This document shows, in pieces, positions 1-35,202 of a stretch of 35,202 nucleotides of DNA; the first letter of the stretch is position 1, and the number at the start of each line of letters is the position of its first letter. Under the pieces are notes generated by a model that saw only the letters and a list, made by a program, of their open reading frames with translations, made no database searches and was not told the DNA's origin. The position numbers and the translations under genes are program-made. The DNA comes from a virus, in IMG/VR virus record IMGVR_UViG_3300008267_000177, positions 1 through 35,202 of that record; one strand, written 5' to 3'.

Positions 1-30
1 TTGCTATAAAAAATAGTAAATTTGTAAAAG

Positions 31-110
31 ATGAGTTGCAGCATCAGTAATAAAGTTTTAATCCCTTTGGTGAGTAGAGCCTGCAACCTCGAAAGCCGAA
101 GGGTTTTTTA
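31..110 (+). ncRNA. Pseudoknot-capable leader or small RNA
   Basis: Two helices interlock. GTTGCAG (35-41) pairs perfectly with CTGCAAC (81-87). CCCTTTGG (63-70) pairs with CCGAAGGG (96-103) through 7 Watson-Crick pairs and one G-U. The order a-b-a'-b' is that of an H-type pseudoknot, and the second helix is followed by six T. With the promoter at 35081-35112, this would be an RNA of about 80 nt or the 5' leader of the replication gene at 121. It could be an attenuator, a riboswitch-like element or a trans-acting RNA. It does not resemble a riboswitch class I can name. Confidence 0.45.
63..109 (+). terminator. Rho-independent-type terminator in the leader
   Basis: The 8-bp stem 63-70/96-103 has a 25-nt loop and is followed by T104-T109. 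It lies 12 bases before the first start codon. It could end early transcripts arriving from the 28-35 kb side, or act as an attenuator for the gene at 121. The long loop makes it weaker than a classical terminator unless the overlapping helix 35-41/81-87 helps or competes with it. Confidence 0.5.
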
Positions 111-120
111 TTTCCTATAA

Positions 121-32995: not shown

Positions 32996-34296
32996 ATGAA
33001 AAACACACAAACACAATTATTTACTGATAAAATAGAATTAATACATCTTAATTCAGTTATTGGTTCAGGTTATGAAACAAAAGTTGCAGAATTAGCATTA
33101 ATAGATAAAATTGCTTATCGTGCAGCTCGTGCTAATATGCAAAAGCATTCAGCAATTATTTTAAAAATTAATGACGAATTTTCAGGATTTTTTACATATG
33201 AGGTAAACCATACGGTACGTGAGTTTTGTCTATTACAATCAGCTATGTATCCAGGTAAAGAAGATAAAGCTATTTATAGTATGATGATACAAAAAATAAT
33301 AGACCAAAATACATATGGTTATCATATGATAATGACTGTATCTAATAAGCATAAATTAGAAAATCCAAAAGTATTTTTAGCACTTGGTTTTAAAGTAAAC
33401 TTAGCTAAAAGTGATTTTACTTATATTTATTATGGAAAAGAAGAGCAAGTAAGAGTAAAAAGATTATGTCATATGGCTATGACTAATCTATGGAATTCAA
33501 CTAGCGGTGAATGGTTAAAAGTAAAAAAAAATTGGAACGCAAAATTAGAAGAGGCTGGTTTAAAATATAATATACCTAATCCAAAATTCGCTAGTCGTGA
33601 AGGGTGTTGGCAAGGTAAAGCAGGTATGTCTAATATAGTTTTATCAAAACAAAAAGTAGAAAATGATGAAATTATAACAGATAAATCTAAAGATTTAAAT
33701 GGTAATGCAAGTGTATTAGACCCTACTGCGTGTGAAATAATTGTGCGTATGTTTATGCCTACAAATGGAGTTCGTGTTTATAATCCTTTTGGTGGTGGTG
33801 TTCAAATGGGTTTTGTTGCTGGTGGATGTGGTTACGAATATTTATCTAGTGAAATTAGACAAAATCAATGTGATGCTAATAATGCTTTATGTCAGGATTT
33901 TCCAAATGTAAAATGGTTAAAATCTGATACATCAAAATTTACACCTAAACAAAAATATGATTTAATTTTTTCGTGTCCACCATATTATAAAGTAGAAAAA
34001 TATATTGATTATGATGGTAAAAGAATACATTCTTTGTTGTAATGACTGGAGATAGTCGTAATAAAGATGGTGGTTATTATGGTAGTGATGCTGAACATGA
34101 ATTATTTTTTAAAGAACAAGGCTTACATATTTATAATAAAATTATTTATTTAGAAAGTGAATTTACAAGAAGAGCAACAGCTAAAAAAACTTTAAATTCA
34201 AGAAAGTATCCAAAATGTGAACAGCGTGTTTATGTATTTTATAAAGGTGATACATCTAAAATAAAAGACTTATTCCCAAATGTAGGTAGATTATGA
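32996..34296 (+). pseudogene. GNAT-like/N6-adenine DNA methyltransferase fusion, interrupted
   Basis: Two frames together make one protein. The first (32996-34042, 348 aa) has an N-terminal GNAT-like stretch (about residues 20-145: FTYEVNHTVREFCLLQSAMY; MIMTVSNKHKLENPKVFLAL, then GFKV). A class-beta-type methyltransferase follows with motif I NPFGGGVQMG (263-272) and motif IV CPPYY (327-331). It then runs out as KRIHSLL-stop. The second (ATG 34042 to 34296, 84 aa) continues the domain: MTGDSRNKDGGYYG, then LHIYNKIIYLESEFTRRATA. In its frame the bases before the ATG read KNTFFVV, which fits the strand before that motif. A non-multiple-of-3 deletion or error therefore lies near 34018-34024. Split expression cannot be excluded. 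Confidence 0.65.
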
Positions 34297-35087
34297 AAAC
34301 TTATAAAAACATTATATCCCTCTCTAAAAATGAGAGGGGTATTTGGGATTTAGATACGATTAAAGGTTGTGAAAGTGGTTTAAAAGAAAATAAAGATGGA
34401 TGTTATAATGATTGTTATGCTTATAAAACTGCTAAAAGATATGGTATTGATTTTAGTAAATCTATTGAAAGAAAATTTATTAATCAAATGCATAGAAATA
34501 CAATAGTTAAACAAATTGAAAAAATTGATATGCCATTTATAAGAATAGGATGTTCAGGAGACCCATCTGAAAACTGGGAACATACAATTAATATAATTAA
34601 ACAAATAAAAGAAAATAGTCAATTATCATTATTTGATATTTCATCAAAAAAACAAATTGTAATTATTACAAGACATTGGAAAATATTAACTGATAATCAA
34701 TTAAATGAATTATTAAAATATAATATTTGTATTAATACTTCAGTTTCTGCATTAGATAATGATAAATTAATTAAAAATTCATTAGAGCAATATAATAGAT
34801 TAAAACCATTTTGTAAATCAGTTTTAAGAATTGTAACTGCTGAATTTAATGAAGATAATTTATTAGGAAAAAAAATGTATGAAATACAAAGACAATTATT
34901 TAAAAATGAAAATACAATTGATACAGTATTTAGACCATCTTCAAAAAATGAATTTGTTAAACAAAATATTATTAAAGTAAAAAAAATGGCATTTATGAAT
35001 ACAAAAACATTAGTAAGTAAATACAATAAAAAAACATTTTTAGGTAAGTGTAAAAACTGTTTAGAAATGTGCGGATTAAATTTGTAA
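34293..35087 (+). CDS. Cysteine-cluster, radical-SAM-like protein (Gp88/DUF5131-type)
   Basis: The protein has 264 aa. Near the N-terminus GCESGLKENKDGCYNDCYAY has Cys26, Cys37 and Cys41. The segment MPFIRIGCSGDPSENWEHTI, then KQIVIITRHWKILTD and NICINTSVSALDN follows the strand order of a reduced TIM-barrel as in phage radical-SAM-like families (DUF5131/Gp88). The C-terminus adds Cys253, Cys256 and Cys260 in GKCKNCLEMCGLNL, which could bind a second cluster. It overlaps the interrupted methyltransferase by 4 bases and is very AT-rich. Chemistry on a modified base is inferred from neighbours; radical-SAM identity is a fold-level guess. Confidence 0.55.
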   Translation: MKTYKNIISLSKNERGIWDLDTIKGCESGLKENKDGCYNDCYAYKTAKRYGIDFSKSIERKFINQMHRNTIVKQIEKIDMPFIRIGCSGDPSENWEHTINIIKQIKENSQLSLFDISSKKQIVIITRHWKILTDNQLNELLKYNICINTSVSALDNDKLIKNSLEQYNRLKPFCKSVLRIVTAEFNEDNLLGKKMYEIQRQLFKNENTIDTVFRPSSKNEFVKQNIIKVKKMAFMNTKTLVSKYNKKTFLGKCKNCLEMCGLNL

Positions 35088-35112
35088 ATTGCTATAAAAA
35101 ATAGTAAATTTG
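35081..35112 (+). promoter_or_regulatory. Host-type (Bacteroidota) promoter for the junction leader
   Basis: TTTG at 35081-35084 lies 20 bases before TAAATTTG at 35105-35112, which is the same sequence as 17-24. This fits the Bacteroidota consensus of TTTG/TTG, about 17-23 bases, then TAnnTTTG. Transcription would start near base 30 of the circle, just where the folded leader begins. The 12-mer TAAATTTGTAAA occurs twice here (35077-35088 and 35105-35116), so a second box overlaps the -33 element. Confidence 0.6.
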
Positions 35113-35202
35113 TAAAAGATGAGTTGCAGCATCAGTAATAAAGTTTTAATCCCTTTGGTGAGTAGAGCCTGCAACCTCGAAAGCCGAAGGGTTTTTTATT
35201 TC
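35089..35202. repeat. Right copy of 114-bp terminal direct repeat
   Basis: This is an exact copy of bases 1-114. It begins one base after the stop codon of the last gene, so joining the ends gives an intergenic region of about 120 bp between the radical-SAM-like gene and the first replication gene. Confidence 0.97.

Follow-up and report, generated by a model that had tools for sequence, protein, structure and literature searches.

Phage Mu Mom is a GNAT-fold protein that modifies DNA, and radical-SAM chemistry on phage DNA bases has, to our knowledge, been suspected and hardly tested so far. Phage ParB-methyltransferases (PHROG 498; Listeria phage B054 gp77 and Enterococcus phage phiFL3A gp36) carry an N-terminal ParB-like domain, a conserved region before motif I and a methyltransferase domain with the motif CPPY. 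In DUF5131 proteins (phage Gp37/Gp68, PF07505) a cysteine motif with the spacing C-x6-C-x2-C ends in CYA, and the GP88 phage proteins are radical-SAM-like. Finally, CmoA, CmoX and CmoY of Synechococcus phage S-B43 constitute a 5-carboxymethylcytosine system, in which a phage enzyme with a methyltransferase fold attaches a handle and a neighbouring enzyme then builds on it (PMC12783734).

Here we describe a linked pair of genes, found in many environmental phages, that encodes a GNAT-methyltransferase and a radical-SAM-type protein and that probably writes a chemical mark on phage DNA. The first protein shares its methyltransferase domain, including CPPY and the conserved stretch that precedes motif I, with the ParB-methyltransferases, but a GNAT-like domain stands where those enzymes have ParB, and a radical-SAM partner lies downstream or is fused. 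It resembles Mu Mom in being a phage protein with a (predicted) GNAT fold and differs in that its GNAT-like domain is fused to a methyltransferase and has a radical-SAM-type protein as partner. The partner has a cysteine motif that, like that of DUF5131, ends in CYA; its spacing, however, is C-x10/11-C-x3-C, and relative to both DUF5131 and GP88 (the latter among its fold matches) it has an extra C-terminal CxxCxxxC cluster. A handle installed by one enzyme and elaborated by its neighbour would be common ground with the Cmo system, which differs in its cytosine C5 target, Cx-SAM donor and amide ligase; neither 'radical' nor 'acetyltransferase' occurs in the paper describing it (PMC12783734).

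The window (the whole stretch of DNA analysed, a virus record of 35,202 bases) carries terminase, portal and tape-measure genes, and its two ends are identical:

1..114, no strand: terminal direct repeat, identical to 35089-35202
35089..35202, no strand: terminal direct repeat, identical to 1-114

The 114 bases shared by both ends are most easily explained by a phage genome that is complete and either circular or terminally redundant/permuted, and the record probably is complete. The cassette thus adjoins the contig join and is not located at a true genome end; across the join it is followed by a replisome-organizer-like gene at 121-744 (phrog_13246). Three ORFs span the cassette (32996-34042, 34042-34296 and 34293-35087), the last two of which overlap by 4 bases. 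Domain architecture, motifs and predicted folds, all computed directly, are as follows:

32996..34042, + strand: GNAT-methyltransferase gene, N-terminal 348 aa; residues 1-342 are 100% identical to L001, followed by a shifted tail and a premature stop
33032..33433, + strand: GNAT-like domain (residues ~13-146), AlphaFold model m0448b06cb0ee
33782..33799, + strand: SAM-binding motif I, NPFGGG, invariant in 40 homologues
33974..33988, + strand: catalytic motif IV, CPPYY, invariant in 40 homologues
34023..34024, + strand: point at which 94 bp present in L001 are missing and the reading frame is lost
34042..34296, + strand: methyltransferase C-terminal 84 aa in another frame; phrog_498, E 8.6e-15; 100% identical to the L001 C-terminus
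34293..35087, + strand: radical-SAM-fold partner, 264 aa (model m9c6bd819d046, with BFVD fold matches)
34368..34415, + strand: N-terminal cysteine motif C26-x10-C37-x3-C41-YA, after beta-1, invariant
34557..34565, + strand: GDP motif where beta-2 ends, candidate radical-SAM GGEP motif (GEP in L207, L090 and L100)
35049..35072, + strand: C-terminal cluster C253-x2-C256-x3-C260-G, invariant; candidate auxiliary cluster or metal site

The initial annotation had described two reading frames, 32996-34042 with NPFGGG and CPPYY and 34293-35087 with two cysteine clusters. Both are present, and a break in the methyltransferase gene had gone unnoticed. Comparison with the near-identical virus L001, whose identity to the window is 100% across 4,637 bp ahead of the break and 99.8% across 1,179 bp behind it, shows the first two ORFs to be a single broken gene: because the window lacks 94 bp between 34023 and 34024, one protein of ~464 aa appears as two. 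The protein is intact (464 aa) in L001, and most other loci likewise carry an intact full-length homologue. The lost bases map between motif IV and the C-terminal part of the methyltransferase. They reflect either real decay or an assembly error and, unless the latter is true, the window's copy of the cassette is probably inactive.

The proposal that this gene encodes an N6/N4-type DNA methylase was supported by family searches. PF01555 was matched in 35 of 40 homologues (best E 4.3e-6), although the L001 protein, at 20.3 bits, lies below the curated cut-off of 26.7; intact homologues matched PHROG 498 'DNA methyltransferase' (E 3.3e-38), and the predicted structure (pTM 0.81) matched SAM methyltransferases (E 3.6e-8), with the AprA MT2-GNAT didomain as the second-ranked whole-chain match in the PDB. 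Motif IV reads CPPY rather than the D/N/S-PP-Y of N6/N4-type enzymes. By alignment, CPPY is common to the phage ParB-methyltransferases of Listeria B054, Enterococcus phiFL3A and Mycobacterium Vincenzo, so the catalytic domain comes from a widespread phage family and the novelty lies in the N-terminal domain. We therefore assign the C-terminal half, as a predicted activity, to the N6/N4-type DNA methylases of the phage ParB-methyltransferase family. Two relatives have other companions. In Croceibacter phage P2559S (L233:1473-3114) the gene after a methyltransferase relative overlaps it and is annotated as S-adenosylmethionine decarboxylase, possibly another SAM-derived donor system; in Mycobacterium phage Vincenzo (L234:1-2275) the ParB-methyltransferase overlaps a gene annotated as carboxylate deaminase, another odd partner.

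Many radical-SAM/methyltransferase enzymes modify tRNA, and proteins are frequent targets of GNATs. The same two enzymes might accordingly act jointly on RNA, such as tRNA of the host or the phage, or on protein rather than on DNA, and the best fold match of the methyltransferase half is indeed a tRNA m2G methyltransferase (5e71). We nonetheless regard such a substrate as improbable: the family matches (PF01555 and phrog_498) are to DNA methylases, the annotation of one relative names a ParB-domain DNA adenine methyltransferase of a phage, and in the window the cassette directly follows recombination genes (ERF, YqaJ and NinG).

The N-terminal half is predicted to adopt a GNAT fold, as the initial annotation had suggested. 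Its strands and helices follow the order beta-alpha-alpha-beta-beta-beta-alpha-beta-alpha-beta-beta, mostly at pLDDT ~90 (model m0448b06cb0ee), and there is a weak sequence match to the GNAT chain 3bln (E 0.19-0.48). In the alignment the CoA pyrophosphate-binding Q/RxxGxG/A is absent: after beta-4 the sequence reads YPxKKDKxIYSxMV, without a glycine motif. On the strength of the model, GNAT-like is a fair description of the domain. Kinship to Mom, also proposed, was not supported: comparison with a profile of 10 aligned Mom homologues gave P=0.21 over 14 columns (hhalign), and the conserved Mom motifs ELNRxW, SFAD and YxAxNF are absent from the GNAT-methyltransferase. No sequence relation to the Mom family was thus found. 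Among Mom-like genes themselves, that of Enterococcus phage RioGrande (L224:2474-3298) has a thioredoxin-domain gene as its immediate downstream neighbour.

The two cysteine clusters of the partner are not a chance feature, since all six cysteines (C26, C37, C41, C253, C256 and C260) are invariant in alignments of 46 and 18 sequences. The model built from the 46-sequence alignment has a mean pLDDT of 92.1 and a (beta/alpha)6 layout of alternating strands and helices: beta-1, the cysteines, beta-2 (residues 82-85) with GDP/GEP, and further beta/alpha units up to six. The first three cysteines sit at the radical-SAM place after beta-1, with spacings of x10/11 and x3 rather than CX3CX2C. In BFVD, most of the top matches are radical-SAM/Fe-S oxidoreductases (probability 0.84-0.99, best E 2.1e-3, TM <= 0.47), and the most probable PDB match among the matches listed is the radical-SAM enzyme TsrM (0.82); the leading PDB matches (SulE, LarE and hydrolases) were dismissed for low probability and low TM. 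No match in PDB or BFVD reached E<=1e-3. PF04055 matched neither the window's partner nor 40 homologues; a look-up in Pfam, NCBIfam and PHROGs gave no convincing family; and relatives were found neither among 50,697 phage records nor, with the initial pattern set, in genome contigs. A DUF5131/Gp37-Gp68 profile had no match in the window, and hmmscan found neither DUF5131 nor GP88, but the cysteine region, and that region only, aligns remotely with the GC-x6-GC-x2-CYA of DUF5131 (P=0.003). Against the canonical radical-SAM family, a narrower profile of the partner gave P=0.07 (unrelated control 0.2, obtained with this narrower profile, without fused members); addition of fused and divergent members gave P=0.0023 over 149 columns against the Pfam-positive radical-SAM family, which is still remote.

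We read the partner as a divergent, putatively Fe-S-binding radical-SAM family in which the N-terminal cysteines are unusually spaced (C-x10/11-C-x3-C) and a CxxCxxxC cluster lies at the C-terminus, and the confident (beta/alpha)6 model and BFVD matches agree with the radical-SAM-like layout first noted. The reading gains strength from loci in which a true PF04055 protein stands in the partner's place. The non-canonical spacing, and the lack of a significant match to any solved radical-SAM enzyme, might instead indicate a degenerate fold, or a Zn/Fe-S targeting or structural subunit, in which case the system would be an ordinary DNA methyltransferase. This is unlikely, given that the cysteines after beta-1, the GD/EP after beta-2 and the residues at later strands are all invariant or nearly so, and that a radical-SAM-family protein occupies the same slot in L152, L159 and L177.

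The linkage of the two genes is the strongest result of the analysis. Near-obligate pairing, predicted fusion and replacement by canonical radical-SAM proteins were again computed directly, from 98 distinct homologues of the methyltransferase whose 3' ends are intact, found in IMG/VR and bacterial genome contigs. The cysteine protein lies immediately downstream in 89 of the 98, usually with an overlap of 1-4 bases. Four others are predicted fusions in the reverse order, rSAM-GNAT-MTase, with a continuous frame of 739-839 codons between stops (genome contigs of Desulfobacula, L204; Desulfobacterales, L205; Smithella, L206; and a Spirochaetes MAG, L207). In a further four (L152, L159/L183, L177 and L203) a different radical-SAM-family protein fills the partner slot: those of L159 and L177 match PF04055 above cut-off and have CX3CX2C, that of L152 is split over two ORFs, and that of L203 is a C-terminal remnant. 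One homologue, the remote L208 (best segment 48% identical), is without a partner. This protein, from Riemerella columbipharyngis (L208:5326-6966), carries another domain at its N-terminus, which may be a second one of the GNAT/FemAB type. A sample of ~300 genomes in each of two prokaryotic phyla yielded no further cassette genomes and otherwise remote methyltransferases.

The earlier statement that the pair travels together in other phages is therefore correct, and the pattern does not stem from one phage lineage only. Neither outcome that the initial annotation had named as a refutation, predicted structures lacking a GNAT fold or a SAM/FeS-binding barrel, or two families that do not co-occur, was observed. 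Descent within a single lineage is ruled out as the explanation because flanking genes are mostly unmatched, reverse-order fusions exist and partners have been exchanged. At many loci no neighbouring gene of the window was matched, yet the second protein of the cassette is 53-80% identical. The two proteins tend to diverge in parallel (Spearman 0.47; none of 999 permutations reached this value), yet in 52 pairs, involving a few loci, methyltransferases that are 85-91% identical accompany radical-SAM proteins that are only 52-62% identical; in L030, L051 and L074, which are among these, the partner seems to have been exchanged and the slot kept. Taken together, the predicted fusions, the replacements in the partner slot and the varying surroundings point to a shared function of the two proteins, which we consider very likely.

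The replacement family raises another explanation, namely that the partner repairs or reverses DNA lesions in the manner of spore photoproduct lyase while the methyltransferase marks DNA separately, the two forming a DNA-protection island. The replacement proteins are weakly similar to spore photoproduct lyase (TIGR04070, E 2.5e-6 in L177) and to phrog_9252 'DNA repair photolyase', and their family occurs in other phages without a neighbouring GNAT-methyltransferase. The window-type partner, on the other hand, is without photolyase or spore-photoproduct-lyase similarity, and predicted fusion and near-obligate pairing argue for a single reaction path; of the alternatives considered, separate repair and marking is the least likely. 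The canonical family (L183-L201; CX3CX2C) is related to PA0069 and to the mobile-pair-B radical-SAM proteins and is found in gut phages and others, mostly with no GNAT-methyltransferase next to it, which rules out that it always needs one. A phrog_498 search elsewhere in these phages gave mostly ParB-domain matches.

The most economical reading of the cassette, and the most likely, is DNA base hypermodification against restriction. In its specific form, which we hold to be slightly better than an even bet, the GNAT-methyltransferase and its radical-SAM partner write a complex DNA mark that shields the phage from host restriction. The GNAT-methyltransferase would bind SAM and DNA and act at a base; the partner, encoded by an overlapping gene or present as a predicted fusion, would use an iron-sulphur cluster and SAM to functionalise either the installed group or the base itself; and the GNAT-like domain would transfer a further group or position the substrate. 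The mark would sit on the exocyclic amine of a base, with adenine N6 as the best guess, and once finished would protect phage DNA against the host. DNA as substrate, the base, the order of steps, the product and the anti-restriction role are what we infer here.

More tentatively, and at somewhat less than even odds, the cassette may represent an undescribed class of hypermodification: a GNAT-methyltransferase and a radical-SAM protein with a non-canonical cluster motif acting as one machine that builds a new base. Under the same tentative reading, the machine would sometimes be a single polypeptide and the radical-SAM module would be exchangeable between lineages, and thus possibly set the product. 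The component superfamilies are known. Their combination in three parts, the predicted fusion of these and the unusual cysteine motif appear to be new: none was found in the openly accessible literature that was searched, and an earlier mention elsewhere is possible. The pattern is modular: one methyltransferase platform, an N-terminal ParB or GNAT domain, and interchangeable radical-SAM partners. Being compact, widespread in environmental viruses and predicted to occur as a single-chain fusion, the cassette should allow both activities to be expressed from one gene, and DNA made with the single-gene fusion could then be analysed by mass spectrometry.

Base composition bears on the history of the pair, which had been described as much more AT-rich than its surroundings. 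This is marked for the gene of the cysteine protein (21.1% GC, compared with 31.0% for the window) but slight for the GNAT-methyltransferase (28.1%). In L050 and L081 the gene of the cysteine protein has 33% GC between flanks of 43-49%. Its AT-richness, seen also amid GC-richer flanks, is consistent with transfer.
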